Assembly (NCBI GenBank): GCA_026874595.1
Contig: CM049320.1
Coordinates: 28,694,714 to 28,758,713 of the forward strand
Length of the DNA: 64,000 nucleotides
Direction of reading: 5' to 3'
From: Sipunculus nudus
Taxonomy: Eukaryota > Annelida > Sipuncula > Golfingiida > Sipunculidae
Under the pieces are notes generated by a model. The model searched no databases and had not been told where the DNA came from. It worked only from the letters and a program-made list of their open reading frames with translations. Made by a program: the position numbers and the translations under genes. The stretch's first letter is position 1. Every line of letters begins with the position of its first letter. Shown here piece by piece: positions 874-41,477 of the stretch.

Positions 874-1083
874 CAACGCCTTCCTGTCCAGAGAACTGGA
901 AAAAATATAATGGCAGTTGTTATAACCTGAGTGATTCTGTAGCTTATTCAGAGGCACAGACTGCATGTTATCGTCTTTCAAGTGATTTGGTCATGATAAA
1001 TACAGTGGCAGAAAGGCAGTGGATGAAAAATGTACTGCTAGCACAGGTGCCTGCATGGATAGGCGGAGCTACCGACGGATTTT
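874..1083 (+). CDS. Exon: CTLD-A N-terminal half (copy 1)
   Basis: 210 nt, acceptor cag at 871-873, donor gtaagt from 1084, phase 1 at both ends. Encodes ...TPSCPENWKKYNGSCYNLS..., then EAQTACYRLSS, LVMINTVAERQW and AWIGGATDGF. These are the first two CTLD cysteines, the helix region and the WIG motif. Fully open. Confidence 0.88.
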
Positions 1084-1861
1084 GTAAGTTAATGAATCTG
1101 TAAAATTGCATATATTGCAATGTCATTCAATTTTTTGAGTGAATATATGTTATAGGTAAAATACGTTTAATACAGAAGATCTGGTATAGTGTGAAAATCG
1201 AGAAGCATCAACAATGACTAGTATCAATTGACAAGTGATTAACTGAGGTCACAGGCGACACGAAAGATTCGCTTTCATATGAACACTTCGAAAACGTATA
1301 AATATGACATATGATGTGTTCGTATTTTGTCTGCTTGAAAGATTATAAGTTTATTTAAAAAAAATACACTCTTTTTTTAATTTCATGTGATAACTCGTAA
1401 ATACCTTGAAGGGGATGGATTATGCACCCTCATGAATACTGCAAAACAAAATGTTTGGTACAGCATGGATCGATGCAGTGATCCTTATCCAGCAGTCTGC
1501 AGAAAAGAACTTGTCAGTACAGGTGAAGACACTTTCTCTTGTGATCAACTTAATATTCACGATAAATCAAACTGTACTGATTCCTTTTGTTAAAACATAA
1601 GAGCAATGTGTAGAGCAATTCTTTTATTGTGAATACTTTTTGTATTATATGTTAATTTCCTTACCTTGGTCATTCTCTAATTATATTGAAAATTAATCTC
1701 GTTTGCAACAAAAGAAATGTTATAAATACACTGTTATATTGTGACATTGATTTGATTGGATAAAATTATTTAATTCCTATTTATATTTAATTTATATTAT
1801 ATATATAGTTTTAATAAATAACAATGTTTTTTGTCTGTAAGAAGGTAATGATACATATATG

Positions 1862-1921
<60 letters not shown>

Positions 1922-3014
1922 TAAGATTCTATGAAGCTGTTTCACACCAGATGAACAGAGGTTAATCAGACGGTCAATCAGAAATAACTATATTCCGCTT
2001 CCAATGCTATTCCCATGGCCCGTGATACCAAGCAACTCCTCATACCCGTTCTAATTCACCAGGCTACCACTGGTCCTACCTAGGGTTGTAATGTCCCGAT
2101 ATTTAATAATTTATCGCTGCTCTCATCTATCTATATCATTTAGATTGACTGCACTCTTGAGAATTGATGGACACCCGCCTATCTGCAAATAACTGAAAAA
2201 AAACACTACCGCTCCCCGTTTGGCTAGTTATTATATTGTCATATTACACACGTGGCTATCATGTGTATCATAAAAACGCCCACGACCATACCAGGTTCGC
2301 ACCTTTATAAGAGAGTTCTCCGACAGCTACACCTCTAGTAAGACTGAAGGTGACTGTCCACATGCCTTATTCATACTTTATTTCATTTAAATTGAAGTCG
2401 CATTAGATTTCACTCCCTACATTTTGTCTACCGATAACTAAAACTAGCTTAGTATTTCGCAACAAAATGACTTTAATTACAGCTGACGTACTCAATGAAA
2501 AACATGTTTGGATTCAATATATATGTTTATTTTTATATTTGCACCTTGTTTATAATATATAGGTTTTGAAATGTCTGTTGTTATTTATGAAACTAATTGT
2601 TGCATTCAAAAATCGTGCAATGGTTTCTCTGGAAATGTATATGAATCTCAATGTTTGGTTGGTGTAAACATATGGGACAGTAAACCCCCCTCCTCCCCCA
2701 CTCGCACACGTACTTATACTTATACATTCACATATTATGGTACGAGACATCTACAATAAATCAAACTTTCTTTACAACCGCTGAACAATGTAGATTGTCT
2801 AAATTAGGTCCACTTGGGAAGCATCAAAACACATGACCCAGGGTTCATAATTCACCTACGATCACTTTTGTGGCGTTTAGAAAGATTACAGGATTAAACA
2901 CCAAAATAACATGCAGGGGCCGAAGACAGAGGGACCATATATTTATATGTTATGTTACTAATGTATCATTACATTCATACAGACACTGTTATTTATTGTT
3001 CATTAATATCTATT

Positions 3015-3053
<39 letters not shown>

Positions 3054-4468
3054 AGAGAGAATAGCCATTCTGGTTCATTGTTTATAGAAAAGGAACATGA
3101 ATACACAGAAAAGTCGCTTCAATGCCGATAAGAAACTAACCCTTGACCTTGCGATTGCTGGTCGCTTGCTCTATCCACTGAGCTATAGCAGTTCCCCGAC
3201 CGTCTGTGTATCTGCATATTTTTAAAGGGGACAGCGAAGTGACTCACGGTAGTGACGTCACAGAAGCAGTATGGCAATTTTGAAAGAAAAACGTGACACA
3301 TTTCCCACACTGAGGGAGAGGAACCTCCGCCCACACCCGCTCCTAAAAGGAAAAGGGAATTGTATCCCTGAGAGAGTATACTAAAGATATCTCATATGAT
3401 TACACAGTTATTTCTACAAGAACCAGAATTAAGCCAATCAGACTTTTTTGGTAATATAAACCATAAAACTATACAATAATATTTTGTGAAATATATTGAT
3501 ATATAAGAGTGAGGTATATGAAATAAATCAAGTCTTATCTACATCTTTTTATTGCAATACTATTTGTTTCAAATTTCAGTCAATGTGTCAAATAAACTGA
3601 CTCATTTTTCAGTCAATTAAAAAAACGCTGACATTATCAGCAATTTTAAAAATTGTTAAATAATTGCAAATTACGACAATTTATAAATTGAGACTGATTT
3701 TACATATTTTTTTCTGGGTCAGGCAAAGGGAGTAGATTTCCATGAAATTGTATGTGAGTATGTGGGTGTGTGTGTGAATTGCGCTGTGAGTCCGACCATC
3801 GGAGAATTTTGGCGCTATATGCATAAATTATTTTTATTATATATGTTACATTCAATGTGTAAAATCAGTCAATTGGTAAATTGCCTGAAATTTTCAGTCA
3901 ATTTTCAAATTGCCTGTTTCACTCATATATTCTATTAACATTTCTTTTTTTATATATCTAACTTTTACAAAAAAGCTAATATATTTTACATCATATTGCA
4001 CTTTTCCATGATCCACTTACTAATTAAAGGTATCACACACAGTAAATGTGATAAACAACTACCCTTTTTAACTCATCCAAGCATATCTGGATCAGTTGTT
4101 TTATATTTACATCTGTTTCACTGTGATTAACCTCATAATTCTTTATAAAAAAATTCCACATCATGTTATTTCACGAGTAGCTTAAGTAGAACAAGCCAAA
4201 TATAAAATATGCTATAAAGAAGTAAGTTATATAATATAAGAATACATATATGTAACAGTTATAATATATTTGACATCAAAAACTTGCAATACACCAATTC
4301 TAAATTTCAGTCAATCTGACAAAAAAATTGGACTTATTTTTCAGGCAATTTGTAAATTGCCTAAAAATTTCAGTCATTTTGTAAAATGCCTTAGTTAATC
4401 AGGCAATTTGTAAATTGACTTAAATTTTACGGAATTTACAAATTGACTGATTTTACACATTGACTTTA

Positions 4469-4522
<54 letters not shown>

Positions 4523-6661
4523 GGATTGTATTGTTATTTATTATATCATACAGAAAAAATAATGATTTAATCGTGTATAGATCCTGTAAATCTTTAAATG
4601 ACATTTGTAATGCTTCAATATCCTATTGGACCCTAAAAACTGTTGACCAACAACCAAATTAAGGAAAGGTTGGCAAAGGAAAGAATTATTATTCATTATT
4701 GTGTTGATATTAATTTTATATTAACTGTATGATAGCTTTAGAAAGTAGTTACATATAAAGTTCATATTCTATTACTTAGAAGGATGTACAATTGATATAT
4801 AACAGATTCAATAAATACTATTTTGCAGTATCACTTCCCTGTTCTAACAACGGCAAAGAATACAATGGCAGTTGTTATTACTTGAGTGATATAGTCACTG
4901 GTTCAGAAGCACCAACTAAATGTAGTCTTTATTCAAGTGAGTTGGTCATGATAGCCACAGCGGCAGAAAGGCAGTGGCTTGAAAATGATCTGTTACCACA
5001 GGAGTCCGCATGGATAGGCGGAGCTAAAGACGGATTTTGTAAGTTAATACATCTGTTAAATTGTATACATCGCAATGTCATCCAATATTTCGGAAGAATA
5101 TATTATACAGGTAAACCTTTATTGTTTAATATGCAAAACACTTGCAAAGATTTGATAGATTGGAAAAATCGAGTAGCATCAACAATGACCATCGCTCATT
5201 TTTCCAGTATTGGCAAGTGAACAACCAAGGACATAGGTGACATAAAACGCCCTTTCCTCATGCCATTTTCATATGAATATTTTTGAAAACGTATGATTAT
5301 GATGTATCATGTGTTATTGCTGTGTCTGCAAAAAAATAGACAATTTAGGCCAAAATTAAAAAGGTATATTTTCTCAGGCACTTTTTTTTCAGAAATCAAT
5401 GCGGGCGGGCGCTTTTTTTATTTTAAAGTTTTTGGTATGTTTCGCTAAAAGATGTCATATGATAAGGGAAAAGCATGCAAATAACAGTTTTATTTTGCTA
5501 AATAAGTAAAAGCACTACAAAACAAAGGAAAGTGTATGGTTTTATCTTCTTGAAAGAAATGTCGGAGCGGCAGCAGCTCAAAATTAAAGTTTTTATTGAA
5601 AATCAAAATAATTTTTTTTTTGTGGGGGGTTTGAAATTGATGCGGGCGGTGCCTGAGAACCATACCTTTAATTTTTTAGGGCCTTACAAAAATACACTCG
5701 TTTTTAATTTCATGTCATTAATCTTGAAGGGGATGGATTGTGTATTTTCATGGAGGCTGAAAAAGACATATTATGGTACAACAGGTACGGTCACAAACTG
5801 TGCAGTGATCGTTGGCCGGCCGTCTGCAGAAAAGGAGAAGACAGTAAAAGTAACGATACTTCCTCTGCTGATTAACCTAATACACGCGAAATATTTAAAT
5901 ATTACTGATTCTTTATGATATAATATATAGGAGCAGTGTGAGGAGCACAAGGACTAATTTGTTCCATGGCCTGTTTTTCTATTACTTGTGTCATTCTTGT
6001 ATAATTAAATTTAAAAAACCTCGGCATTCCTCTGCAAAAAGGGTTATATAGAAACGAAGTGATATTTCTTGCTTAATATATTATTTGGAAAAAAGCTGTT
6101 TTGGCATCGGCCGTTGCACAAGCTTCTGTACACTTTGCTGTTATCCTTGTGTAGTTTTTAGCTGCATCCTTTCTCAACTGTAGTACACGTTATCTCTTGA
6201 GGCGTTTTTGATATCAACTTTGAATTCACCTTTATGCAATGATACCTGAAATGGGTACTGCTAATCTTCTTTCACTTTGTTACCGTCTGGCTGTGAGGAT
6301 CTGTGAGTTCATTTAAGATTTCATTTTCTAAATTTTATAGCCTTCTCAATGAACCTAGACATATTGAATGTATTCATTCAAAGGTTAGAACATATTATTG
6401 CAAGGCTAATCTGATACGATACACAACATAGAATTAATCCTGATTTTATTTGTAACATTCAAATAAATCAGATAAATATGGCATATTTGCATTTTCATTT
6501 AAATGCATATGATTTAAACATGTTTTTATTCATAAATATGCTAAAAAGTTTTCTGTCATACTTTACTTTAACATACCATGTACAAATGATATCAGTGATA
6601 AATACAGATATATATTTTTTATATTAGCAAATACCTAATGACGACATTTGAAGGTAACTGT

Positions 6662-6724
<63 letters not shown>

Positions 6725-7947
6725 TCAGGTGCCAGATGGCACATTATGACATTTATTTAAGTTTTCGAGAGTAAAATGCTCCATCTGCTTATCTGCCTCC
6801 CCAAAGACAGTTTGTTAGTTTTAACTTATTGGAAGCTGAAAGCTGCAAATTTTAATAAACATCTATGGGTTGTTGAACACATATAATGAAAGTAAATAAA
6901 ATCGTAAAGATATTGAGTCAAGATATTTAATATCTTTACACGATCCTCATTTTAGCCCAGAAAAAAGGACACACTGAAAGTGCCCCTGATAGAAATACAG
7001 AAACAACTATCAAAACTACTGAACTGGATGCTGAAGAAAAAACTCCCCTAACTCACACTACTGACCCAGATGCAGGAGAAACAACTCCTTCCATCCAGAC
7101 TAAAGGCCGAGATGCTGGAGAAACAACACTTCTCATCCAGACTACTGACCAAGATGCTGGAGAAACATCTCCTCCCACTCGGACTACTGGCCAAGATGCT
7201 GGAGAAACAACTCGTCCGACCCAAACTAGTGACCGAGACGCTGGAGAAACAATCCCTCCTATGCAGACTACTGATCGAGATGCTGAAGAAACAACCCTTC
7301 CCATCCAGACTACTGACCGAGATGCTGGAGAAACAACACCTCTCATCCAGACTACTGACCGAGATGCTGGAGAAACAACACTTCCCATCCAGACTACTGA
7401 CCAGGATGATAGAGAAACCACTCTTCCCATCCAGACTACTGACCGAGATGCTGGAGAAACAACACCTCTCATCCAGACTACTGACCGAGATGCTGGAGAA
7501 ACAACACTTCCCATCCAGACTACTGACCAGGATGATAGAGAAACCACTCTTCCCATCAAGACAACTGACCAAGATGCTGGAGAAACATCTCCTCCCACTC
7601 GGACTACTGACCAAGATGCTGGTGAAACAACTCTTCCCACAAAGACAACTGACCAAGATGCTGATGAATCAGCATTTACCAAAACTACTGGCCAAAATAG
7701 TGATGAATTCACTTCAGCCACAAAACGCATTCCGGTGGCAAGAACCCAAAATATCGAGATAACTGACAAAAAGCATGAAGCAACTACAAAACTGTCCAAG
7801 ACAACTAAACAAGATGCTGAAGTGACTAGGGTGCCTTATGGTCCTCAGAACAAACCGGGGTATGACAACAATCATCTAAAGGCAATGCCAGGAAGTTTGT
7901 GCTATATAGTGATAACAAGAGAGGGGTACTCTCTCATTTGTGATTAA
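874..7947 (+). CDS. Secreted double C-type-lectin-domain protein with Thr-rich repeat stalk (copy 1; 5' exon outside window)
   Basis: Model: exons 874-1083, 1412-1522, 4829-5038, 5730-5849 and 6956-7947. Exon pairs 1-2 and 3-4 each encode one CTLD: CP..W/NGK, YNGSCY with an N-glycosylation sequon, EA..C, LVMI.T.AE, WIGGA, then GLC..M, W, C and VCRK. The last exon encodes about 330 residues of repeat stalk. All junctions are phase 1 with standard GT/AG sites and all exons are open, so the frames join without a stop. By family knowledge, CTLDs of this type are extracellular recognition domains; a ligand cannot be read from the sequence. The Ca-binding long loop (EPN/QPD, WND) is not visible, so calcium/sugar binding is doubtful. 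No transmembrane segment is seen. The signal exon is expected upstream of the window, as at 34,612. An alternative is that A and B are separate genes, but A has no stop or stalk of its own and its donor matches B's acceptor phase. Confidence 0.75.
1412..1522 (+). CDS. Exon: CTLD-A C-terminal half (copy 1)
   Basis: 111 nt. The acceptor AG at 1410-1411 is the first AG after a T-rich tract; a branch-like tgataac lies about 20 nt upstream. Donor gtgaag at 1523. In phase 1 it reads [18 protein letters not shown], then CSDPYPAVCRKELVST, giving the last CTLD cysteines. The A-rich stretch (aaaacaaaa) is in frame here, unlike in copies 2 and 3. Confidence 0.82.
1853..1921. repeat. (TA)n / (CA)n microsatellite
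   Basis: Nearly uninterrupted ta repeat running into acacacacac. Copies 2 and 3 also have TA arrays at the same position (19,497 and 37,183), so the microsatellite predates the triplication. Confidence 0.95.
3010..3202 (-). mobile_element. tRNA-derived SINE, decayed (copy 1)
   Basis: On the minus strand an intact box A (tagctcagtgg, 3175-3185) is followed by a tRNA-like anticodon arm with loop CCAGCAA, then a degraded box B. The body is short and the tail is (TC)n, seen as gagaga at 3,017-3,059 on the + strand. The same insertion exists at 38,707-38,873 in copy 3 with better boxes, so it predates the triplication; copy 2 has lost the interval. Confidence 0.65.
3575..4470. mobile_element. Palindrome-rich fold-back element (copy 1)
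   Basis: The left end (tcagtcaatgtgtcaaat) and the reverse complement of the right end (aagtcaatgtgtaaaatc) match, giving inverted termini. Inside are at least five variants of an inverted motif, for example AGGCAATTT-GT-AAATTGCCT at ~4,343, and others at ~3,870, ~3,896, ~4,372 and ~4,402. Copy 3 retains an internally deleted version at 39,225-39,360. No coding capacity. Consistent with a non-autonomous DNA transposon with subterminal repeats; the superfamily is not determined. Confidence 0.55.
4470..4519. repeat. (CA)n(TA)n microsatellite
   Basis: acacacacacac followed by about 20 TA units, directly abutting the right end of the palindromic element. Confidence 0.95.
4829..5038 (+). CDS. Exon: CTLD-B N-terminal half (copy 1)
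   Basis: 210 nt, acceptor ttttgcag to 4828, donor gtaagt from 5039, phase 1/1. Encodes SLPCSNNGKEYNGSCYYLSD, then [23 protein letters not shown] and AWIGGAKDGF. Intact. Compared with copy 2 (20,976-21,185) it shows about two dozen substitutions, most changing an amino acid. Confidence 0.88.
5348..5683. mobile_element. 336-bp MITE, PIF/Harbinger-like (TTA target duplication)
   Basis: Inverted ends: the left end begins GGCC(A)AAATTAAAAAGGTAT..TCTCAGGCAC, and the right end read in reverse begins GGCCCTAAAAAATTAAAGGTAT..TCTCAGGCAC. Both are flanked by TTA (5345-5347 and 5684-5686), a 3-bp duplication typical of Harbinger elements. Copies 2 and 3 lack the element at this intron position. No coding capacity. 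Confidence 0.75.
5730..5849 (+). CDS. Exon: CTLD-B C-terminal half (copy 1)
   Basis: 120 nt, acceptor ttgaag to 5729, donor gtaacg at 5850, phase 1/1. Reads W-DGLCIFMEAEKDILWYN, then [18 protein letters not shown] and EDSK. In copy 3 the exon ends agtacag before gtgacg; here the same site is agtaaaa before gtaacg and keeps the phase. Nearly identical to 21,563-21,682. Confidence 0.82.
6661..6725. repeat. (TA)n microsatellite
   Basis: Continuous TA repeat; paralogous arrays at 22,482-22,560 and 40,650-40,705. Confidence 0.95.
6904..6939 (+). promoter_or_regulatory. Hairpin upstream of stalk-exon acceptor (copy 1)
   Basis: gtaaagatatt ... aatatctttac forms an 11-bp perfect stem with a 14-nt loop, ending 16 nt before the acceptor AG. 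It could mask or present the 3' splice site in the pre-mRNA; this is inference. Preserved in copy 2 (22,739-22,774), degraded in copy 3. Confidence 0.4.
6956..7947 (+). CDS. Terminal exon: DAGETT repeat stalk and Cys-containing tail (copy 1)
   Basis: Acceptor tttag to 6955, phase 1. Starts A/T-QKKGHTESAPDRNTETT, followed by 17 units of a 14-residue repeat (consensus TTDxDAGETTxPIQ; 7,015-7,725), then a non-repetitive Thr/Lys-rich linker ([21 protein letters not shown]) and the tail [17 protein letters not shown]-stop. High Thr and Pro predict an O-glycosylated, extended mucin-like stalk with regularly spaced acidic residues. Stop TAA at 7945-7947. Because the repeat is 42 bp, several other frames are also open here; this frame is chosen because it continues the upstream exons in phase and ends in the conserved tail. 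Confidence 0.82.
7015..7725 (+). repeat. 42-bp coding minisatellite, 17 units (copy 1)
   Basis: Each unit encodes about 14 residues. A three-unit block of 126 bp is duplicated without visible change (7,309-7,434 and 7,435-7,560), showing recent expansion. Copies 2 and 3 have 14 and 6 units. Confidence 0.92.
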
Positions 7948-10900
7948 ATGTATGTAATTTGTAGACTGAATGGATCGGCTTAGACTGCCAATTCACGTTA
8001 CACAATACGAAGATACGTTTGCGGTTTTGATAGTTTGGGTACTATGTCACCTAAACTGAATATGGTATATATGTATTAAATGTTGAGATGCCATGCACTT
8101 ATTTCGTCAAAAAAAAAAAAACCTTAAGCTCACTGTCTTTTAATGATAATTTTACCATGAAGATGTTTTTAAATGAAAAGCGTAAGATAGCAAGATTCTC
8201 AAGTGGTGTACATATTAAACGTTATCAATGTAACCAATTGTCCTTACTTTATATGCACTAACCGCATCCTATCGGTTCTTTTTCGGAGATAAACGAATCA
8301 TCTTTATGATAAACACGTAACATATGTGTATTATAATTCATTGATTAATTTTGAAATTTGACATTTTCTCTCGCACATATTATAATAAAATAAATGTATT
8401 GTGACATTATATTGATTTAGAACTTCGTGTTTTTTCACATTGTCCATGATTGTCGTTGTTTATGTGTAGATCGCTTGATTAAAGATATCAAAGGATTCTT
8501 TGAATCCATTCAATACAGAATCGGGTTCCAATTTTTATATAGATTATATTTGTAACTGAATTTCATTCCGGTCGCTACCTCTATTGAATTGAGTACACAG
8601 GGGTCGCAAAAGAGTAGTTTTATTGGATAGAGAAGATTTCCATTAAAGTCAGTTTAGCTGGCTCACACCAGTTTAATCGTTTCTGTGTAACCTCATTATT
8701 TAATGTCTCTATGACTTTGCATATAAGATATGACCAGAGGTTATCAGCAGTTGTTATAAAAATGCTGACACCAGGTGCTGTCCTTAACGTCACTGTTCCG
8801 ATTTCCTCCAAGAAACCTCTGATATGTCAAATGATCTAATTAAAAAAAGATACTATGCTAATTTTTATGATTTATAAATTAAAAAAAAAAATTCACAAAC
8901 GCGCATGGTAAACCTCTGTCAACTGCCCCTATCTGAGTTATTTTTCCATGACTATATGCAAAGACACACCAAGCACATCTCATACAAGAAGTAAGGGAAT
9001 CAAAATGAAGTATCAGAAAAGTATCGTGTAGTTGATCCTTTATGCGTCCCCCATACACCATTTTTTTACACGTGACAAACACTACTCGTTCCCGGTTAGA
9101 CTCTTTCTCTCCGACATCATAGTGTTTCGTTGGCCTACATTAAGTGCGTAATATGCTTTTGTAAGTTCTGGTTCTCAAGCGTCTCTGTGTGAGAGGAAGA
9201 CTTCTCTTTTCATGATCCAGTACAATGTCTGTAAAATGCAGATAAAATCCGTTTCATTCGTGAATTCTCTAGATTTATACCGGACTGATAGGTTTTTTTT
9301 TCAGTCATGGCTAAACAAGCGGGAGATTCCAAAGGCCAGCCAAAGACCAGAAGAAAGTCGATAATTTAACCATTAGATAACGACCGAAAAACGTAAACAA
9401 ATGAATACAGGTGAACGTATAAATCAAATATCTGAAAAAAACGCAAAACGTAATAGACCTTTAGGAGACATCAGACGCAAACACATTAATGTTTACCAAT
9501 ATATTGGAATATAACGGAATTTTTTTTCAAACTTTGTGGGTGTTGTTGTAAAATGCACAATAACATCTTACTGGTAGTTGAGTAAAATTTTCCTGAAGGC
9601 CGTAAAGCGTGCCAAAACTGTCGGTTTGCGTAATTATCGAGATTCACAGTGTGGTGTTCAGTGTGGAAGTGTGCAATTAAAGCCACTGATGGGGTTTTGA
9701 TAATATTACAAGCAGAAGGATGCATTTCTTGTACCCAGACAATCCAGAAAATGTTTTATCAAATAATTTAAATTTTATTGTTACATATATTTTCACATTT
9801 CTTAAAATATGTATACAATAACTGACATATAATTCCGCTCTAAAGAACTATAAGCATTACACCTGATTTGGTAATGTAGACCTACTACCGACAATCAACC
9901 GCAGAAGCTTAAAATAAAAAGCAGTACACTGCGATACCACATGTATCTTGTTAATTAATTGCAGTAATAGTCTTCATTACGAATGACTGACATCTAACAT
10001 TGAAACACCTGCTTAAAAAACAGTATGGTTTTAGAGCAGGCCCTGGAAACCAATAACATAGCGTTAGTATGGAGACATTCCTAGAGAAATAAAAGAATGT
10101 GTACGCCACATTTGTGAACTTGATCATAGGATGTACAAGGTGAGTTGAAAAAGACAATGGAAACTCTTTGATGAGTAAAGCTGCCTACTGATGTCACTTA
10201 TTATGATCAGGTCTTTCTCGATGCCAGGCTCAGTAAAGTCAGTCTCCATAACGACTTGTCCAAGTCCTCTTAAATCACCAATAGCCAGAAGCCAGCTGCG
10301 TCTTTGTTTGACCTTAAAGTTTCAGAGCATATTTTTATGCTTCGCAGAGGCTTCTGGTGTATTTTGTATAGAAGTCAGCTTGCAAAAACTGTCCTAGAGA
10401 AGCCTACCAAAGATAATGTCTCTAGACAAGTATCTCCATCCACTAAATTAAGATCTGAAGGCTCTTATTCCTGACCATTCACATACCGCTCTGAATCAAA
10501 GGTCACTTTTGCTCTAACATGTGCATCTTTGGAAGATTCCACTAATGCTATCTGCGCTCCAGCTGGAAACCAGCGGGGCACTATGTAAGAAAGATATCAT
10601 AATGAGAAAACGCCGAGGCCCCCAGCATCAAACTCATTTTTAATTCTGCGGACACATCGCTACATCGCCTACCACAGTCAGGATTATACGGAGAAATGGA
10701 TTCTAATCATTGCAACACAGGCGACTCAAAATGTGGTGTAGAAATACGTAATGGAACCGTCTGCCTAGGTCGACCGCCTGCGCAGTTGCCCGAAATCCTT
10801 AGCGACTTTCCATCTACCAGCTTTTACTATTTTCGAAGCGAAAATGGGACGTCAGTTTAGCCACGTACAGATCAAATCCCCCCCCCCCCCCGGCAGCTGC

Positions 10901-11499: not shown

Positions 11500-12248
11500 T
11501 GAACGTTTTGTGCGGATCGCTAATGGAATATTCTGGAAGTTGCTACTTCTTGGGCCAAGAATCGTCTTCTAGATGCGCTGCAAAAATGCTATCGTTATAA
11601 CAGTCAACTTGTACTGGTCACAACGGAGGCTGAAAACACCTTATTAATCAGTGTTTAATGTCAATTGGATTTGGTAAGGTTACTTTCCCATTACTAACCA
11701 TTTGTGTTTATGTCCCTTATATGATATAACGGCAAAGTGGGAACTCTCCTTGTGAATCTGAATTAAATTGACCAAAGTGACTACTATATACATGCATTAT
11801 GAATTGTTAAATTAAATTTTCAAAACTATCCAATATTAATTAACCAGATCCACGTTTCTTTATGGGTATATGAAAAATGTTCTTGGAATCTACATAATTG
11901 GCTGATACTGAATATGCAAAACTAATTTTCATCAAAATATTATCCATATACATATTTTTTTCCGAAAATCTACTATTATTTTCATATTCATTTAATTAAA
12001 TAATCACACTCATATTTCGTTATAGGTTTTGTTACGCGACATTGGTTGATTAAGTTTACGTTGATATTACACCAGTAATTTTGAAGTTGGCTTTGAATCA
12101 GTCTTATTTAAATAATCACGATAAATTTTGACAGACAAGCAGATTGGAAGGGGTTGGGAATTGCATATCTATGAGAGGAATGACTGGAGACTGGTTCTAT
12201 CTATCTTGTACACAGACCAAGCAGTACGTCAGTTAAAAACTGTCGAGA
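11500..12248 (+). pseudogene. CTLD-C pseudogene, copy 1 (two exons)
   Basis: Exon 11,500-11,673 retains the CTLD core (MEYSGSCYFLGQESSSRCAA, then CYRYNSQLVLVTTEAEN), but the two halves lie in different frames, with the shift at aaaaatg, and the WIGG segment is deleted. Exon 12,151-12,248 (acceptor ttggaag) reads NCISMRGMTGDWFYLSC, then TQTKQYV, and hits a stop where copy 3 reads LCQK. Same exon boundaries and phase as CTLD-A/B. The first frameshift is shared by the copies, so the locus was broken before triplication. Confidence 0.75.
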
Positions 12249-18620: not shown

Positions 18621-18830
18621 CAACGTCTTCCTGTCCAGAGAATTGGAAAGAATATAATGGCAGTTGTTATTACTAAAGTGATATACTCACTCGTTCAGAG
18701 GCACAGACTGCATGTAATCGTCTTTCGAGTGATTTGGTCATGATATGTACAGTGGCAGAAAAGCAGTGGATGAAAAATGTACTGCTAGCTAAGGTGTCTC
18801 CATGGATAGGCGGAGCTACCGACGGATCTT
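18621..18830 (+). pseudogene. CTLD-A exon with nonsense codon (copy 2)
   Basis: Same 210-nt exon as copy 1. Codon 18 is TAA (tgt tat tac taa). The remainder reads on as [20 protein letters not shown], then EKQW and PWIGGATDGS. The final F codon is also changed (ttt to tct). Confidence 0.85.
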
Positions 18831-19498: not shown

Positions 19499-19545
<47 letters not shown>

Positions 19546-20975: not shown

Positions 20976-21185
20976 TATCACTTTCCTGTTCTGACAACGG
21001 CAAAGAATACACTGGCAGTTGTTATCACTTGAGTGATCGTGTCCCTCATTCAGAGGCACCGACCAAATGTAGTCTTAATGCAAGTGAGTTGGTCATGATA
21101 GCCACAGCGGCAGAAAGGACGTGGATTGAAAATGATCTGCTATCACAGAAGTCCGCATGGATAGGCGGAGCTACCGACGGATTTT
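20976..21185 (+). CDS. Exon: CTLD-B N-terminal half (copy 2, open)
   Basis: 210 nt, phase 1/1, open. Reads SLSCSDNGKEYTGSCYHLSD, then [23 protein letters not shown] and AWIGGATDGF. The glycosylation sequon at YNGS is altered to YTGS. It sits in a disabled gene, so expression is doubtful. Confidence 0.75.
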
Positions 21186-21562: not shown

Positions 21563-21682
21563 GGGATGGATTGTGTATTTTCATGGAGGCTGAAAAAGAC
21601 ATATTATGGTACAACAGGTACGGTCACAAAGTGTGCAGTGATCGTTGCCCGGCCGTCTGCAGAAAAGGAGAAGACAGTAAAA
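21563..21682 (+). CDS. Exon: CTLD-B C-terminal half (copy 2, open)
   Basis: 120 nt, open, two residue differences from copy 1 (L to V, and the Trp of DRWPAV to Cys, giving an extra cysteine). Acceptor ttgaag and donor gtaacg conserved. Confidence 0.72.
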
Positions 21683-22480: not shown

Positions 22481-22481
<1 letters not shown>

Positions 22482-22560: not shown

Positions 22561-22563
<3 letters not shown>

Positions 22564-22790: not shown

Positions 22791-23656
22791 CCCAGAAAAA
22801 AGGCCACACTGAAAGTGCCCATGATAGAAATACAGAAACAACTATCATAACTACTGAACAGGATGCTGAAGAAACAACTCCCCCAACTCAGACTACTGAC
22901 CGAGATGCAGGAGAAACAACTCCTTCCATCCAGACTAAAGCCCGAGATGCTGGAGAAACAACACTTCTCATCCAGACTACTGACCAAGATGCTGGAGAAA
23001 CATCTCCTCCCACTCGGACTACTGGCCAAGATGCTGGAGAAACAACTCGTCCGACCCAAACTAGTGATCGAGACGCTGGAGAAACAATCCCTCCTATGCA
23101 GACTACTGATCGAGATGCTGAAGAAACAACCCTTCCCATCCAGATTACTGGCCGAGATGCCGGAGAAACAACACCTCCCATCCAGACTACTGACCGAGAT
23201 GCTGGAGAAACAACACCTCCCATCCAGACTAATGACCAGGATGATAGAGAAACCACTCTTCCCATCAAGACAACTGACCAAGATGCTGGAGAAACAACTC
23301 CTCCCACCCAGACTACTGACCAAGATGCTGGTGAAACAACTCTTCCCACAAAGACGACTGACCAAGATGCTGATGAATCAGCATTTACCAAAACTACTGG
23401 CCAAAATAGTGATAAATTCACTCCAGCCACAAAACGCATTCCGGTGGCAACCACCCAAAATATCGAGACAACTGACAAAAAGCATGAAGCAACTACCAAA
23501 CTGTCCAAGACAACTAAACAAGATGCTGAAACGACTAGGGTGCCTTATGGTCCTCAGAACAAACCCGGGTATGCCAACAATCATCTGAAAGTAATGCCGG
23601 GAAGGTTGGTTGTGCTATATAGTGATAACAAAAGAGGGGTACTCTCTCATTTGTGA
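22791..23656 (+). pseudogene. Stalk exon, copy 2, with frameshifted tail
   Basis: Phase-1 acceptor cattttag. Fourteen 14-residue units (22,850-23,434), same linker as copy 1 up to [17 protein letters not shown] 4-base insertion relative to copies 1 and 3 then shifts the frame, so it ends in LVVLYSDNKRGVLSHL instead of the CYI..C tail. Confidence 0.75.
22850..23434 (+). repeat. 42-bp coding minisatellite, 14 units (copy 2)
   Basis: Shares the order of the outer units with copy 1 but lacks the duplicated 126-bp block, so copy 1 expanded (or copy 2 contracted) centrally. Confidence 0.9.
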
Positions 23657-25425
23657 TTAAATGTATGTAATTTGTAGACCTAATAGATTGGCTCAGACTG
23701 CCAATTCACGTTACACAATACGAAGATACGTGTGCCTTTTTGATAGTTTGGGTACTATGTCACCCAAACTGAATATGGTATATATGTATTAAATGTTGAG
23801 ATGCCATGCACTGATTTCGTCCAGAGAAAAAACATTAAGCTCACTGTCTTTTAATGATAATTTTACCATGAAGATGTTTTTAAATGAAAAGCGTAAGATA
23901 GCAAGATTCTCAAGTGGTGTACATATTAAACGTTATCAATGTAGTCATTTGTCCTTACTTTATCTGCACTAACCGCATCTCATCGTTTTTTTTCGGAGAT
24001 AAACAAATCATCTTTATGATAAATACGTAACATATCTGTCTTGTAATTAATTGATTAATTTTAAAATTTGACATTTTCTCTCGCAAAAATTATAATTAAA
24101 TAAATATATTGTGTCAGTATATTGATTTAGAATTTCGTATTGTTCACATTATTCATGATTGTCTCTGTTTGTTTAGAGATCATTTATTGAAGAATATCAA
24201 AGGATTCTTTGAATCCACTCAATACAGAATCGGGTTCCAATTTTTATATAGATTATATTTGTAATTGAATCTCAATTTCGGCCGCTGCCTCTATTGAATA
24301 AAGTACATAGCGGTAGCAAAGGAGTAGTTTTATTGGTTAGAGACGATTCCCATAAAGTCAGTTTAGCTGGCTAACACCACGGTTTAATCTTTTCTACGTA
24401 ACCTCAATAATATTTATTGTCTCTATGACTTCGCATATAAGATATTACCAGAGTTATCAACAGTTGTCACTATTCCGATTTCCTCCGAAAAACCTCTGAT
24501 ATGTCCAATGATCTAATTTTAAAAAATACTATGTTCATTTTTATGATTTATAAATGTTAAAGCAAAAAAAAAAAGATTCACAAACGCGCATGGTAAACCT
24601 CTGTCAACTGCCTCTAGTTGAGTGTTTTTCCATGACTATATGCAAAGACACACCACGCACATCTCATAAAAGAGGTAACCGCATCAAATTGATTTTTTCG
24701 GTGATAAACAAATCATCTGTTGATGAAAACGTTACATGTGTATATTATAATTAATTGATTAATTTTGACATTTTCTCTAGCACATATCAAAAATGAATAA
24801 ATATATTATGATATCATTTTATTTTAGAATTTCTATCTTTTCGCATTGTCCATGATTGTCGTTGCGTATGTGGAGATAGTTTGATGAAGGATATAAAAGG
24901 ATTCCTTGAATCTATTCAATACAGAATCGGGTTCCAATTAACAAATTGATTAAGTTTGTCAACAAATCTCAATTCCGGTTGCTGCCTCTATTTATTTAAT
25001 TAAATAGGGACCGCAAAGGGGTAGTTTTTTTTGTATAGAGGATCCGCATTAAAAATCAACTGGCTCACACCACGGTGTAATCGATTCTACGTAATCTGAA
25101 TATTTATTGTCGCTACGAATTCGCATGTAAGACATGACCAGAGGTTATCATCAGTTGTTATAAAATGCTGACACTAGGTGTCGTCTTTAACGTCACTTTC
25201 CGATTTCCGCTAAAAAACCTTTGATATGTTCAATGATCTGAATAAAAAATATTATGTTAATGTTTATAATTTATGAATATTTTAAAGCAAAAAAATATAG
25301 TTCCGCAAACGCAAATGGTAAACGTCTGTCAAATGCCTCAAGTTGAGTGTTTTATCCATGACCATAAGCAAAGACACATAAAGCATATCTCGGACAAGAA
25401 GTAAAGGAAACAAAATATGGTATAT
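23657..25425 (+). other. 3' flank of copy-2 stalk, with a ~0.7-kb local duplication
   Basis: AATAAA at 24,099-24,104 corresponds to the copy-1 polyadenylation signal. From ~23,950 the sequence is repeated once at a spacing of about 696 bp: aatacagaatcgggttccaa at 24,221 and 24,917; ccatgattgtc and acgcgcatggtaaac-type blocks likewise. Copies 1 and 3 carry it once. No gene seen. Confidence 0.6.
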
Positions 25426-26418
25426 CTCTGGCTGGATAGTATATTCTGGAAGTTGCTACTTCCAGGCCAAGAAGCGTATGTAGATGCGTTGCAAATATGC
25501 TTTCGTTATGATAGTCAACTTGTACTGGTTACTACAGGGGTAGAAGACACCTAATTAATCAGCGTTTTAGGTGAAGGATGGGAAGTTGATTGATAGATTG
25601 AGCTGCCATTGGATTTGGTAGGGTTACTTTTCCCATAATTCACCATGTGTTTGATTTATCCCATGTATGATATAACGGCGAAGTAGGTACCCTCGATTGT
25701 GAATCTGAATTAAATTGACCAAAGTGACTATTACTTATTGTGAATGTAAATTAAATCTTCATAACTATACGATACTGATTGGCTAGATCCACGTGTTTTT
25801 GTTCATGGGTTTATGGAAAAACGTACTTGAAATCTGCATCACTGGCCGATACTGAATATACAAAACTAATATTCAGCGGAATATTATTCATACTCATATT
25901 TTGCTAAAAATCTGCTTTTATTTTATATTCACAAAAATGAATATGCGCATCCCACTTTCCGTTATAGGTCATGCTGACGCGACCTTGGTTGATTAAGTTA
26001 TATAATGTCTTATACCGGTATTCTTGAAATGGGCATTGAATATAAGACCTGGACAGCTCCGCTGGAGACCCGGGTTCTATTCCCGGTGAGGCTATGAGAG
26101 TTGTTCGTAATTGACCGTCCAAGGTGGGTAGTTTGTCCCGGGTCTTTATGTTTCCTCCACTTTTACCGACTACTGAGCGCCAACATCAGAGCCCTGGAGA
26201 ACCCTCGTATTAGTTATTATAACTAGTTGTACAATCCATGTAAAATAAATAAAGTTAAAGAGTTATGAATCAGTTTTTAATAATCACTATTTATTTTGAC
26301 AGACAAGCTGATTGGAAGGGTTGAAAATTGCTTTTTAAGTGAGAGGAATGACCGGAGACTGTTACTATCGATCTTGTGCACAGATCAAGCAATACGTGTG
26401 TGAAAAAACTGTCCGAGA
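25426..26418 (+). pseudogene. CTLD-C pseudogene, copy 2
   Basis: The first exon begins inside a deletion junction (about 25,426) and extends to 25,617: GWIVYSGSCYFQAKK-like start, then CFRYDSQLVLVTTGVEDT in another frame, stop codons inside, WIGG lost. The second exon (about 26,318-26,418) has GDCYYRSCAQIKQYVCEK-like sequence in broken frames. Interrupted by a SINE at 26,041-26,267. No stalk exon remains. Confidence 0.7.
26041..26267 (+). mobile_element. 5'-truncated tRNA-derived SINE (copy 2 only)
   Basis: Starts in a tRNA T-arm-like segment with a box-B-like sequence (gggttctattcccggtg at 26,072). It continues through a core containing gtttcctccac and ends in an A-rich tail (aaataaataaagttaaag). 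Copies 1 and 3 have the uninterrupted site (ttgaatcagtctt), and gaat flanks both ends here. Confidence 0.65.
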
Positions 26419-31415: not shown

Positions 31416-31423
31416 ATATCTAC

Positions 31424-32925: not shown

Positions 32926-32933
32926 ATATCTAC

Positions 32934-34569: not shown

Positions 34570-34600
34570 TATATACGGCAGACGTAATATGTTTCACTCA
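34570..34600 (+). promoter_or_regulatory. TATA/Inr-like core promoter of the copy-3 lectin gene
   Basis: TATATA at 34,570-34,575 and an initiator-like TTCACTC with A at 34,596, 26 bp apart, just upstream of ATG 34,612. The TATA is preserved at 48,896 in front of the orphan signal exon. Spacing is canonical for RNA polymerase II; the TSS is inferred. Confidence 0.45.
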
Positions 34601-34611
34601 ACCGGAAGAAG

Positions 34612-34675
34612 ATGATCACTAGAAATCTCATCATTACCACCTCGGTAGCGCTCTGGCTTTCGTATTACCTTGCGA
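34612..34675 (+). CDS. Exon: signal peptide (serves copy 3)
   Basis: 64 nt from ATG to the donor gtaag at 34,676; phase 1. Encodes [19 protein letters not shown] and LA: basic N-terminus, hydrophobic core and small residues at the end, a typical secretion signal. Joined to CTLD-A it gives [11 protein letters not shown], so cleavage would fall just before the lectin domain. The sequence is duplicated at 50,015-50,078. Confidence 0.8.
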
Positions 34676-37600
34676 GTAAGAACATTTACAAATGCGTTCA
34701 CGTCGAAACTAAATAGAGAAAGGACAATTATTTGTACATCTTTGCATGAACCCTGTGGAGGGGTTTTGACAAACATGTTCGTGATCTCAGATGAATGTTT
34801 TTAAGCCATATTATGTTTGTTAAGCAAGGTATATGTTTTGCTGTCATTCCTGCTCACTCTATAAATGTAGACTTAGAGATATGGTTTATATAAATTGGTA
34901 TGGGTGCAATAACTTGGGATCAACCTTGGGGAATGACGTCGCGCAAAACGTGAAAACATGTCTGATAACGCTGAGAAAGGACCAGTAAAAGCATTTATTT
35001 TCGTACATAGTTTTAACAAACAAATAAGATAAATTCATATTTACAGCACTTTATCCTACGAGTACCAGGTCTTGAACCCACTCATTTTTTGATAACGGTC
35101 CTGTATTGAAAAACGTTGGTTTAAAGTTGATCCCCAGTTAATGTACATATACCTACACATTAATGTTTATGTTTTTTTTAAGATACCATCTTACCCTTGA
35201 ATTTGAATTGAATATTTGCCAAATACAACCTTTTTTGACAAAATAAGGATGCCTATACTTATAGCTTTTACACACTAGTACGTACAAGTACATATTTGTG
35301 CTTGAAGAAACACAGTTTATTTGCAAATAAAACACAAACGATATACTCATTCAACGTTTATAGAGAGCACCGCTGCTTTAATGTTGCTTACTCTAGTCTG
35401 GAGAGTCTCTTAAAATGATCAAAAAGCCGCATTGATTTGATCACGTTAAGTTTTGAATTCAGCCTTTGATGACAGATTTAACACTTGCCTGTACGTCCAT
35501 GGCCCCTTGTTTCGCTTGATCAGCTCCTGGTTCGTCTTGTCGACCGTCAAATATTGCTTCAAATTGCCCTGAGACTTTTCATCCATATCCATTCTTTTAA
35601 CGGCTGGTAAAGACAGGCAAATTATATGTGTCCTGAGTCCATGCTGGCCTTTGAAAATGTTTTTCCTTTTTTGGACCCTTATTAAAGGGTGAACTATGCC
35701 TGCGCCATGCGGAACCGGAAGTCCACAACATAAGTCTTACTCAGCTATTTTGCAGCACCAATAACTATTTATAGTAACCCGTACGGTACACCGTAATGAG
35801 TGCTGACCTATAAACCACTTTATATATTTAAATACCTACTGGTATTTACTGATTACATCATAAAATCTATGAAATATCCAGTTTTATAGACACATATATT
35901 TTAGGTGCAATCATATTTGCTAAGAAATTAATATCATATGTTTTGTTGTTTTTGGAAATGTATCAAACTTTCTTCCAGATATTGGCGTTGTTCAAATAAA
36001 TAAGATTTCCTGGCATAATTTGACTTTTTTATCTACCATTCTCGGAAATTTCGTTGATTGTAAATATGGGATATTTTCCGGCATGTTTTGGTTATCCAAT
36101 ATATACAATACTCAGAATGATAAATAAAACAGAAATTTTAGAGTCGGGTCCATGTTTGTTAAAAAAATGACTGTATTTGTGTGAAATTTCGTTTCTCTTA
36201 ATCCAAAGATCTTTTAAATTAAAAAAAAGCATATAGCTTAATTTATTCTGACATATTAGTAACCGGTTCAATAAATAATATTTTGCAGCAGAGGCTTCCT
36301 GTCCTGAGAACTGGAAAGAATATAATGGCAATTGTTATAACTTGAGTGATCCTGTCCCTTGGTCAGACGCACAGACTACATGTAATCGTCTTTCAAGTGA
36401 TTTGGTCATGATAGGTACAGTCGCAGAAAGGCTGTGGATGAAAAATGTACTGCTTGCACAGGTGACTCCATGGATAGGCGGAGCTTTCGAAGGATTTTGT
36501 AAGTTAGTGTGTCTGTAAAATTGTATAGATTGTAATTTCATTAATCTTTTACGAATAAATATATGTTTTAGGTAATCCTTTATCCGTTTAGTACAGTACA
36601 TTTGCAATGATTTGGTACATATTTGGAAAATCGAGAAGCATCAACAATAACTCGTAGTCTATCCCTTTTTTCCCCTGGATTAACAATTATTTAACTGAGG
36701 GCACAGGCGACATGAAACATTAGCTCTCATGTGAACATTTGAATAACGTATAAATATGATATATGATGTGTTCGTATTTGTCTGCTTGAAGGATTATAAG
36801 GTTATTTAAAAAATACACTCTTTTTTAATTTCATGTGATGAATCGTAAATGCCTTGAAGGGGATGGATTATGCACGCTCATGAATGCAGCAAAAAAAAAT
36901 TGTGGTACAGCAGGGATCAATGCAATTCTTCTTTTCCAGCAGTCTGCAGCAAAAGACTAGACGGTACAGGTAAGCACACTTTCTCTTGTGATCAACTTAA
37001 TATACACAAACTGTACTGATTCCTTATGTTCAATATAAGAAGAATGTGTGGGGCAATTTTTTGTGTGACTTTTTTTGTACTATATTCTGATTTCCTTCAG
37101 ACTTTCTCTAATAACAATGAAACTTATTCTCGGTTGCAACAAAGAAAATGTTATAAATACAATGTTATATTGTGACATTGATTATATATGTATATATATA
37201 TATATTTTTTTTTATATTTATTTTTAATTTTGATTATATATAAATATATATATATCTATTAGATTCTATGAATCTGTTCCACTCGAGATTAACAGAGAAT
37301 AATCCGACGGTCAAACAGAGAGCTTTCAGTGCTATTCTCCATGCCCGTGTTACAAAGCAACTCCTCATACCCGCTCTAGTTCACCAGGCTACCACTGGTC
37401 CCGCCTACGGTTGTGATGTCCCGATATTAAATAATTTATCTGAAGAACTGACATAAACACTAGCGCTCCCAGTTCGGCTAGTTTTTATATTATAATATTA
37501 CACACGTGGCTATCGTGTGTATTATAACAACGCCCGTGACCATACCAGGCCATCACTTTGTAGTAGAGCCCTCTGACCGCTACACTTCTAGTAAGACTGA

Positions 37601-38592: not shown

Positions 38593-38650
<58 letters not shown>

Positions 38651-38669
38651 TACATATATATACACATGC

Positions 38670-38727
<58 letters not shown>

Positions 38728-40547
38728 GATTGCCATGCTGGTTTATTGTATATAGAAAAAGGAACATGAATACACAGAAAAGTCGGTTCACTGCCGATTG
38801 GATTCGAACCCGTAACCTGCGATTGCTAGTCGCTTGCTCTACCCACTGAGCTAAAGCAGATCCCCGACCCCTCTATGTATTGCAAAGTTATAGTAGGTAC
38901 CAGCGAAGTAACGTCACGGTATTGATGCCAGAGAACCAGCATGGCAATGAAAATCGTGACACCTTTCTTGCGCTGGGGCAGAGGGACCCCCGCTCATATC
39001 CACTCATATAATAAAAGGGAATTTGTGCCCCTGAGGGAGGGAAATAATGACATCACGTATGATTATCTAATTGTTTCTACAAGAAACAAAATTATATAAA
39101 ACATTAAACATTACAACAATATGATATCAAATATATTATATTTTATGAAAGTAAGGTATATGAATAAATAATATGTAATTTACATCTTAGTAACTTTTTG
39201 GAAATAGTATTTTTCTCTTTTCCATTTCAATCAATGTGTCAAATAAATTGACTGAATTTTTAGTCAGTTCATAAAATGACTGAACATTTCACTCAATTTA
39301 TAAATATGTAAAAAGACTGAAAATTTGCGCAATTTATAAATTTATATACGTCTTTCAGGATTGTATTTTTATTACTTATAAAATACACACAAAATAATAA
39401 TTCAATCGACCCTGCAAATCTTTGAATATCGAATTTGCGCCCTCAAAAGTATTGACAAACCAAATACAGAAAAGGTTGGCAAAGGAAAGAGTTGTTATTC
39501 ATTATTGTGTTGATATAAGTGTTACATTATTTGTATGATAGTTTAAGTAACACGTTTAGTTCTACCATTTCCATTGCCGTTCGAAATAAAGTTCTTATAT
39601 ATTTTTTAAAAGAATGTTAAAATGATAGATAGATAACATATATAAAAATATTTTGCAGGATCAGGTCCCTGTTCTAAAAACGGCAAAGAATACAATGACA
39701 GTTGTTATTACTTGATTGATAATGTCACTCGTTCAGAAGCACCGACTAAATGTAGTCTTTATTCAAGTGAGTTGGTCATGATAGCCACAGCGGCAGAAAG
39801 GCAGTGGATTGAAAATGATTTGCTATCACAGGGGTCCGCATGGATAGGCGGAGCTACCGGCGGATTTTGTAAGTTAATACATCTGTAAATTGCACACATT
39901 GTAATTTCATCCAATATTTGGAATGAATATATTATATAGGTAATCCTTTATTCGTTTAATATGCAGAACATTTGCAAAGATTTGATATATTGGGATAACC
40001 GAGTAGCATCAACAATGACCCTTACCCTGTTCTTTCATTTTCCAATATTGACAAGAGAACAAGCAAGGTCATAGGTGACATACGACATTTACAGAACACC
40101 CATTCCCCTTTCGCTTTCATATGAATAGTTGAAAAACGTATGAATATGATGTATCATGTGCTCATGTTGTGTCTCCTTGAAAATTAAAGCCAAATTTAAA
40201 GAATACCCTCGTTTCTAATTTCATGTAATTAATCTTTAAGGGGATGGATTGTGTATTTACATGAAAACTACGGAAGACAAAATATGGTACAACAGGTACA
40301 GTCACACTGGGTGCAGTAAAAGTTGGCCGGCCGTCTGCAGAAAAGGAGAAGACAGTACAGGTGACGATACTTTCTCTGTATTTTAAGAGGGTCCGGGAAT
40401 TTGTTAAAACACAGTCCAACTCCAGTTCTGGGGAAATTTTAATGAATTTAGCTTTGATTTCATCATGTTTTTATTCATAAAATGCGTCTGGTTTCTGTGT
40501 TGCTTTACATTAATATGCTTTGTACAAATGATACCAGTGATATATAC

Positions 40548-40605
<58 letters not shown>

Positions 40606-40647
40606 TATATTAGCAAATATCTTATAACGAAATGGGAAGATAAATCT

Positions 40648-40704
<57 letters not shown>

Positions 40705-41477
40705 GCAGGTGCCAGATGGCATATTTTGACATTTATTCAAGTTTTAATAAACAAGTATAAATTCCTCGTTCTGCTTATCTGCTTCCTCAAAGAGAGTATG
40801 TTTATGCTGCAACATTTTGAATATTTAACTTGAAAGCAACACATTTAAATTACATAAATGGTTATTGAGCACATATAACGAAGGCCAACAAAATCGTTAA
40901 GATAATGAGTCAAGATATTTAATTTCTTGACATAATTCTCATTTAAGCCCAGAAAAAAATATACAGTGAAAGTGCCCTTGATAGAAATGCTGAAACAACT
41001 ATCACAACTACTGACCCAGATGCTGGAGAAACAACTGTCCCCGCAACGACTAGTGACCAAGATGCTGGAGAAACAACTCCTGCCACCACGACTACTGACC
41101 AAGATGCTCGAAAAACAACTCCTTCTATCCAGACTACCGATCAAGATGATCGAGAAACATCTCATCCCATCCAGAATACTAACCAAGATGCTGATGAATC
41201 AACTCAGACCAAGACTACTGACCGAAATGCTGATGACTTCACTACAGCCAACAAACGCATTCCGGTGGCAACCATCCAAAATACCGAGAAAACTGAAAAT
41301 AAGCATGAAGCAACTACCAAACTGTCCAAGACAACTAAACAAGATGCTAAAACGACTAGGGTGCCTTATGGTCCTCAGAACAAACCTGGGTATGGCAACA
41401 AACATCTAAAGACAATGCCGGGAAGGTTGTGCTACATAGTGATAACAAAAGAGGGATACTCTCTCATTTGTGATTAA
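34612..41477 (+). CDS. Secreted double-CTLD/stalk protein, complete gene (copy 3; one A-run frameshift)
   Basis: Exons 34,612-34,675 (signal peptide), 36,289-36,498 and 36,860-36,969 (CTLD-A), 39,659-39,868 and 40,241-40,360 (CTLD-B), and 40,948-41,477 (stalk and tail). Every junction is phase 1. Promoter, signal peptide, two CTLDs, six-unit stalk and the conserved CYI..C tail are present, about 415 residues in all. The only lesion is exon 3, 110 nt instead of 111, one base short within an A9 run (36,892-36,900). It is either a true recent frameshift or a base-calling error in a homopolymer. It is predicted to be secreted and perhaps linked through tail cysteines. No membrane anchor is seen. 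Ligand unknown. Confidence 0.72.
34676..36288 (+). other. Intron 1 of the copy-3 gene, containing the unit junction
   Basis: The copy 2/copy 3 boundary (~35,527) falls inside this intron. 35,360-35,580 carries, on the minus strand, a decayed remnant of the coiled-coil coding segment seen at 17,643-17,876. Acceptor ttttgcag at 36,288. Confidence 0.55.
36289..36498 (+). CDS. Exon: CTLD-A N-terminal half (copy 3)
   Basis: 210 nt, open, phase 1/1. Reads [20 protein letters not shown], then [23 protein letters not shown] and [10 protein letters not shown]. Acceptor ttttgcag and donor gtaagt conserved. The sequon is changed from NGS to NGN here. Confidence 0.87.
36860..36969 (+). CDS. Exon: CTLD-A C-terminal half (copy 3), apparent -1 in A9 run
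   Basis: Acceptor ttgaag, excellent donor gtaagc at 36,970. [12 protein letters not shown] leads into nine A; downstream the lectin frame ([22 protein letters not shown]) is reached only with one more base. Donor and residues are otherwise well kept, which argues for a very recent or artefactual lesion. Confidence 0.7.
37183..37258. repeat. (TA)n microsatellite, interrupted
   Basis: TA blocks separated by T-rich sequence, paralogous to 1,853 and 19,497. Confidence 0.85.
38588..38727. repeat. Compound (TA)n(CA)n(TA)n(GA)n microsatellite
   Basis: About 140 bp of dinucleotide repeats; the GA part is the tail of the adjacent minus-strand SINE. Confidence 0.95.
38707..38873 (-). mobile_element. 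tRNA-derived SINE (copy 3)
   Basis: Minus strand: perfect polymerase III box A tagctcagtgg (38,843-38,853) and box B ggttcgaatcc (38,800-38,810). Between them lies an anticodon arm with stem gcga/tcgc and loop CTAGCAA (anticodon AGC, Ala-like). The T-stem and acceptor stem do not pair well, so it is a SINE head rather than a working tRNA gene. Short body and (TC)n tail follow. Confidence 0.75.
39225..39360. mobile_element. Deleted palindrome-rich element (copy 3)
   Basis: Starts caatcaatgtgtcaaataaa like copy 1 at 3,575 and retains cagttcataaaatgactg-type inverted units, but is only about 135 bp long. Confidence 0.45.
39659..39868 (+). CDS. Exon: CTLD-B N-terminal half (copy 3)
   Basis: 210 nt, open, phase 1/1. 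Reads [20 protein letters not shown], then [23 protein letters not shown] and [14 protein letters not shown] is changed to YNDS, which keeps the glycosylation sequon. Confidence 0.88.
40241..40360 (+). CDS. Exon: CTLD-B C-terminal half (copy 3)
   Basis: 120 nt, acceptor tttaag, donor gtgacg at 40,361. Reads [18 protein letters not shown], then [18 protein letters not shown] and EDST. Open. Confidence 0.82.
40543..40705. repeat. Two (TA)n arrays in the intron before the stalk (copy 3)
   Basis: 40,543-40,606 and 40,650-40,705, separated by about 45 bp of ordinary sequence. The rest of the intron (40,361-40,947) shows nothing else. Confidence 0.92.
40948..41477 (+). CDS. Terminal exon: short stalk and Cys-containing tail (copy 3)
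   Basis: Acceptor atttaag to 40,947, phase 1, stop TAA 41,475-41,477. Only six 14-residue units (41,007-41,255), then the linker ([20 protein letters not shown] and [19 protein letters not shown]) and tail [17 protein letters not shown]. Open and in phase with the preceding exons. Confidence 0.82.
41007..41255 (+). repeat. 42-bp coding minisatellite, 6 units (copy 3)
   Basis: Shortest of the three arrays; units are more diverged from one another than in copy 1. Confidence 0.88.

Follow-up and report, generated by a model that had tools for sequence, protein, structure and literature searches.

Does the locus considered here encode one multi-domain protein, or two lectins and an orphan mucin exon? 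It is located in the genome of Sipunculus nudus (assembly GCA_026874595.1) on contig CM049320.1, here termed C15. The window, which is the whole stretch of DNA analysed, comprises the 64,000 nucleotides (nt) C15:28,694,714-28,758,713. Two predicted C-type lectin-like domains (CTLDs), A and B, are followed downstream by a Thr-rich repeat stalk with a Cys tail. The original prediction had joined these parts by phase-1 introns into a single gene of a family that can change both its lectin number and its stalk length without breaking frame. The six-exon genes described below would specify a secreted, mucin-stalked, disulfide-linked binding protein, a prediction whose chances are judged to be about even. 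"Lectin" is used as the name of a fold; the domains are predicted ones, and the term does not imply activity.

Gene structure and the pairing of CTLD-A with CTLD-B

The region searched for gene copies spans 274 kb, namely the window, 100 kb on each side and a further 10 kb on the left; window coordinates are extended below 1 and above 64,000 to number the flanks. It contains seven A-B-stalk copies, designated a, b, 1, 2, 3, 5, and 6, and the tandem units within the window recur at about 17.7 kb. Exon order is identical in all seven, an agreement that does not amount to independent draws because the copies are homologous. Each gene would consist of a signal exon, the exons A1 and A2 of CTLD-A, the exons B1 and B2 of CTLD-B, and a terminal exon for stalk and tail. 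Copies 1 and 3 have the following exons in the window.

874..1083, + strand: copy 1, exon A1, first half of CTLD-A; 210 nt, phase 1-1
1412..1522, + strand: copy 1, exon A2, second half of CTLD-A; 111 nt, phase 1-1
4829..5038, + strand: copy 1, exon B1; 210 nt, phase 1-1
5730..5849, + strand: copy 1, exon B2; 120 nt, phase 1-1
6956..7947, + strand: copy 1, terminal exon with Thr-rich 42-nt repeat stalk and Cys tail, stop TAA
34612..34675, + strand: copy 3, signal exon, 21 protein letters; 64 nt, phase-1 donor
36289..36498, + strand: copy 3, exon A1
36860..36969, + strand: copy 3, exon A2; 110 nt, frame-shifted at a run of nine A's
39659..39868, + strand: copy 3, exon B1, open
40241..40360, + strand: copy 3, exon B2, open
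40948..41477, + strand: copy 3, stalk and Cys-tail exon, open

The junctions predicted for copy 3 (34,675/36,289, 36,498/36,860, 36,969/39,659, 39,868/40,241, and 40,360/40,948) are all GT-AG and in phase 1, and so are their copy-1 equivalents within the window. As had been described, the frame of copy 1 is open through its five window exons, from A1 to the stalk stop, and that of copy 3 is broken at the A-run, where A2 is one base short (110 versus 111 nt) and a TAG follows. Complete open six-exon frames are found in copies 1, b, and 6, encoding 568, 405, and 428 amino acids, respectively. All of their introns are GT-AG, with a weak-looking A2 donor in b (GTTAAC), and phase 1 is kept at each module border. 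In gene a, all five exons seen are open.

Exon lengths are nearly invariant. A1 and B1 measure 210 nt and B2 measures 120 nt in each of the seven copies, and A2 measures 111 nt in five of them, the exceptions being copy 2 (113 nt) and copy 3 (110 nt). Six signal exons were found, five before genes (b, 1, 3, 5, and 6) and one standing alone, all of 64 nt and with a phase-1 donor. Inside the window only copy 3 has its own; the candidate of copy 1 lies 9.2 kb upstream of A1, beyond the window edge.

No signal, repeat or tail match at E up to 0.01 was obtained in the interval between A and B in any of the seven copies, and both domains are present in all of them. In a tree built from 15 CTLDs (A of five copies, B of seven, and three paralogues, with A of copies 2 and 3 omitted), A and B separate with support of 91/93 and in 100% of 200 bootstrap trees; one branch only is strongly supported in this tree, and the paralogues are placed on long branches. 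Since A and B form separate groups, the A-B pair predates the gene copies. It appears distinctly improbable that A and B are separate genes, or alternative heads that share one stalk and are never translated together. Such an arrangement would profit from the 1-1 symmetry of all internal exons, by which either head alone keeps the frame, from copy 3, which would stay open if its signal exon were spliced to B1, and from copies 2 and 3, in which A is broken yet B is open; it is at odds with the clean A-B interval, with the co-occurrence of both domains in seven of seven copies, and with the three copies that are open across both. With three complete open frames and nothing terminal-like between A and B, the assignment of each A-B-stalk copy to one multi-domain gene, as originally proposed, is therefore well supported, as judged from sequence.

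The proposed flexibility of the family holds for one of its two parts. Lectin number is constant, both CTLDs being retained in all seven copies, but stalk length does vary in frame. Tandem Repeats Finder (TRF) recovers 42-nt units in 15.5, 12.5, and 4.7 copies from the stalks of gene copies 1, 2, and 3, and the stalk exons measure 992, 870, 530, 782, 572, 521, and 503 nt in copies 1, 2, 3, 5, 6, a, and b, respectively. Relative to copy 3, copy 1 is longer by exactly 11 units of 42 nt, copy 5 by six, copy 6 by one, and copy 2 by eight plus 4 nt, which are a duplication; the stalk exons of a and b fall short of that of copy 3 by 9 and 27 nt. In the four sequences read in frame, Thr makes up 21-24% of the stalk and Asp plus Glu 15-19%. 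The tail conforms across subfamilies to the pattern C-Y-I-[VIL]-x5-[YH]-x-[LM]-x-C. Thr-rich tandem repeats are a feature that the array stalks share with gel-forming mucins. At E up to 1, Pfam reported neither type of assembly domain of those mucins, von Willebrand or cystine-knot, in the stalk-tail exons of copies 1 and 3.

A CTLD fold without the long loop

Both domains resemble the first half of the CTLD superfamily (PF00059) in the N-terminal Cys pair and the Trp/Cys pattern, with WIGG in place of WIGL, and differ from it in lacking the long loop and the calcium and sugar motifs that it carries. The distance from WIGG to the following Cys is 9 residues in A and B; in other CTLDs of the same genome it is 32-36 residues, counted from WxGG, a spacing that was obtained for four of eight such domains. 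Of the 107 positions of the Pfam Lectin_C profile (PF00059), copy-1 A matches only 3-46 and the B domains match only 4-46. With 24.5 bits, copy-1 A is above the cut-off of 22.6, and B of copies 1, 2, and 3 remains below it (15.9, 14.4, and 15.5, respectively). Three diverged paralogues from the flank, C, D, and E, exceed the cut-off and span 4-45 at most. WIGG (WIDG in B of gene a) and the conserved Cys positions are present in the CTLD alignments.

A profile of four CTLDs matched many CTLDs of the PDB, with a best E of 1.3e-11 and 122 distinct solved sequences at E up to 1. Among 60 of these 122, the match stops at profile column 63-71 in 54 and earlier in four, and two (CD69) reach column 94. 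In SRCL (2ox8), the matched pieces are 47 residues apart versus 23 in the query, the second piece being a weak match.

An exon encoding the loop, hidden between the first (E1: A1, B1) and the second (E2: A2, B2) CTLD exon, was considered and rejected. A scan of 13 introns (six A and seven B, with the A intron of gene a left out) yielded no conserved cassette, the best shared candidate occurring in at most two of the six A and four of the seven B introns.

QPD is a sugar motif of canonical calcium-dependent CTLDs, and a Link domain is a compact CTLD without the canonical long loop. A and B do not contain a canonical long loop with calcium and sugar motifs (EPN or QPD, and WND). A section of PMC7618208 names EPN and WND as CTLD motifs and assigns to the long loop both the calcium sites I-III of C-type lectins and their canonical binding of sugar. 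As these sites sit in the part that is missing, the known calcium-sugar binding mechanism is unlikely in A and B. N-glycosylation sequons (NGS or NDS) are found right before a CTLD Cys in four spliced frames.

The intron downstream of the WIGL-type motif is a further trait common to the array CTLDs and the superfamily; part of PMC514892 describes an intron downstream of WIGL as a known CTLD position. The Link-domain profile gave no Pfam-A match to four CTLDs (E up to 1) or to the three paralogue CTLDs (E up to 0.01). Herpesvirus UL45 (PF05473) likewise is without a canonical long loop, and paralogues C and E are matched over nearly the whole domain, but all matches fall below the 27-bit cut-off, with at most 23.1 bits. 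Scallop CfLec-3, as described in PMC4432315, also combines more than one CTLD in one secreted protein, as is predicted here, yet it has three carbohydrate-recognition domains instead of two loop-less CTLDs with a Thr-rich stalk and a Cys tail. Clustered genes, repeats, and rapid diversification are reported for Sp185/333 (SpTransformer) of the sea urchin in part of PMC5103432, an analogy of genome dynamics only. Among the open-access papers listed by the literature searches, no title or opening of an abstract described a loop-less two-CTLD mucin; this corpus leaves subscription journals mostly outside and is a weak test of novelty.

Damage, selection, and probable conversion among the copies

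The gene model as first described does not fit copy 2, in which A1 contains a stop and both A2 and the tail are shifted. Its exons are as follows.

18621..18830, + strand: copy 2, exon A1, in-frame TAA
19152..19264, + strand: copy 2, exon A2; 113 nt, frame-shifted, nine A's
20976..21185, + strand: copy 2, exon B1, open
21563..21682, + strand: copy 2, exon B2, open
22791..23660, + strand: copy 2, stalk exon; 870 nt, a 4-nt duplication shifts the frame ahead of the Cys tail

The duplication, read by eye, is GGTT. The A part is still present in copies 2 and 3, though broken. The A-run of A2 has nine A's in copies 2 and 3, seven in copy 5, and only four or five in copies 1, a, and b; in gene 6 it reads AAAAAGAAAA. 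Because run length differs between copies, separate homopolymer indels are a simpler explanation than programmed frameshifting, which was rejected. The nine-A run of copy 3 may be an assembly error. As copy 3 stays open with a signal-to-B1 splice, damaged A parts might be skipped in splicing.

Mean pairwise ratios of nonsynonymous to synonymous divergence (dN/dS), calculated with the A exons of gene a left out, are 1.02 for A1, 1.02 for B1, 1.52 for A2 (four sequences; 0.68-6.03), and 2.02 for B2 (bootstrap 1.12-5.39; 1.93 with 0.95-5.94 when copy 2 is omitted); that of the tail is 0.54 (0.33-0.93). Independent pairs give 0.99 for E1, 1.79 for E2 (p = 0.13), and 0.53 for the tail (p = 0.017). 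Between E2 and the tail the difference is significant (p = 0.003), and between E1 and the tail it is not (p = 0.09). Purifying selection thus acts on the tail; E2 evolves either under weaker constraint or by diversification, and its dN/dS falls short of proof of positive selection.

These values bear on two rivals of the predicted binding protein. It is possible, if doubtful, that the product is structural (mucus, adhesive or matrix) and that its loop-less CTLDs serve as scaffold modules instead of recognition heads. The Thr-rich acidic repeats, the constrained Cys tail, and the missing long loop would suit such a protein; the excess of amino acid change in E2 over the tail suits a varying contact surface better, without being decisive. 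An array made up mostly of decaying duplicates, with few or no working genes, has little probability. Decay would fit the damage to copies 2, 3, and 5, the stop and the frame break in a lone stalk near -83 kb, and the dN/dS near 1 of E1. Against it stand the complete open frames of copies 1, b, and 6, the five open exons seen in gene a, the constrained tail, and a divergence of A1, B1, and the tail that, between copies 1 and 3, is lower than in most adjacent introns.

Several points nevertheless weigh against reading the array as a set of genes for a secreted binding protein. The gene models are predictions from DNA sequence. Copies 2 and 3 are damaged in A, and copy 2 in the tail as well. The stalk acceptor of copy 5 is TG instead of AG; a downstream in-frame AG would offer gene 5 an alternative stalk exon start at 100659. 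Nothing in the window resembles the known signal exons so as to serve copy 2, and the flanking stretch L045 holds no convincing candidate for gene a. The E1 ratio near 1 is also compatible with relaxed constraint. Finally, synonymous divergence in the CTLD exons (0.09-0.14) is lower than the divergence of most neighbouring introns between copies 1 and 3 (0.16-0.26), which inflates dN/dS; that exon-centred conversion accounts for this low value is a guess. Separately from these points, a signal-like sequence before B1 of copy 2 (20857-20932) was dismissed as looking like chance.

Homology switches partner at 35355/35363, and copies 1 and 2 share one unusually similar tract.

5714..8250, no strand assigned: tract of copies 1 and 2 unusually alike, limits approximate, divergence mostly 0-0.08

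Divergence is 0.08-0.19 to its left and 0.08-0.22 to its right, and the start of the B2-stalk intron differs at 2 of 249 bases. The near-identity across about 5.7-8.2 kb points to recent conversion or exchange.

Relatives of the array and the predicted protein

In the genome of 1.43 Gb (153 contigs), a tail query obtained 16 matches at E up to 1, located in the array at C15:28.60-28.83 Mb, three times at C15:25.12-25.20 Mb, and once, weakly, on C12 (E 0.73); all nine matches of a second tail query are on C15. Each of the three loci at C15:25.1-25.2 Mb has an E2 match that precedes the tail on the same strand, in one case of just 14 residues (E 0.001). Paralogues C (+144 kb) and E and D (+156 to +158 kb), examined by eye, are two-exon loop-less CTLDs before a stalk and a Cys tail; the former locus may have one CTLD, and the latter has two.

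Each tandem unit also contains a relic of another CTLD first exon (type C), at 11511-11661, 25433-25575, and 44704-44895. These relics carry stops or frame breaks; near +144 kb there is a relative that is open. On the - strand, 60699-60905 holds a diverged first exon of a CTLD, open across the match. At -32.9 to -31.7 kb and +138.8 to +140.4 kb there is a related subfamily whose repeats are of the KGEATTQTTKTTD type and whose Cys tail is similar; its tail region has stops or breaks. The solitary signal exon is intact.

50015..50078, + strand: lone intact signal exon

No CTLD exon was detected after it on the + strand to the window end, and it was perhaps left behind by a gene that once stood between copies 3 and 5.

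Two kinds of repeat were also noted. The single Rfam match is a tRNA-like sequence at 38789-38860 (- strand) inside a repeat, probably a short interspersed element (SINE), to which the region about 3038-3689 is related. A multi-copy element, copies of which have long Lectin_C frames, accounts for over 50 of 151 genome matches and is perhaps mobile or viral; in its copy at C9:16,264,000-16,270,000, two Lectin_C frames adjoin a CARD frame.

Summarizing, the mature protein predicted from the complete copies would consist of two compact loop-less CTLDs, a Thr-rich acidic stalk of 14-amino-acid repeats, and a short C-terminal module. It would be secreted and O-glycosylated; the Cys tail would either join chains by disulfides or anchor them in mucus, and the heads would bind ligands via surfaces apart from the calcium-sugar site. 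Recognition or agglutination in mucus or haemolymph would be the likeliest role, and the family would turn over by birth and death. A more far-reaching scenario, considered unlikely, is a lineage-specific recognition repertoire in which the loop was lost, the E2 surface came under positive selection, and a conserved Cys tail on a mucin stalk of variable length joins the heads into multimers, giving an invertebrate immune or gamete-recognition system built from 1-1 exon modules by conversion and by decay or skipping of A.

The array offers a natural series of seven tandem copies, three of them complete, in which both CTLDs, like those of the diverged paralogues, are without the long loop and yet open, so that ligand binding by the bare CTLD fold would become testable. 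It also illustrates what 1-1 symmetry permits: most differences in stalk length are whole multiples of 42 nt, and A can fail while B and the stalk remain readable.

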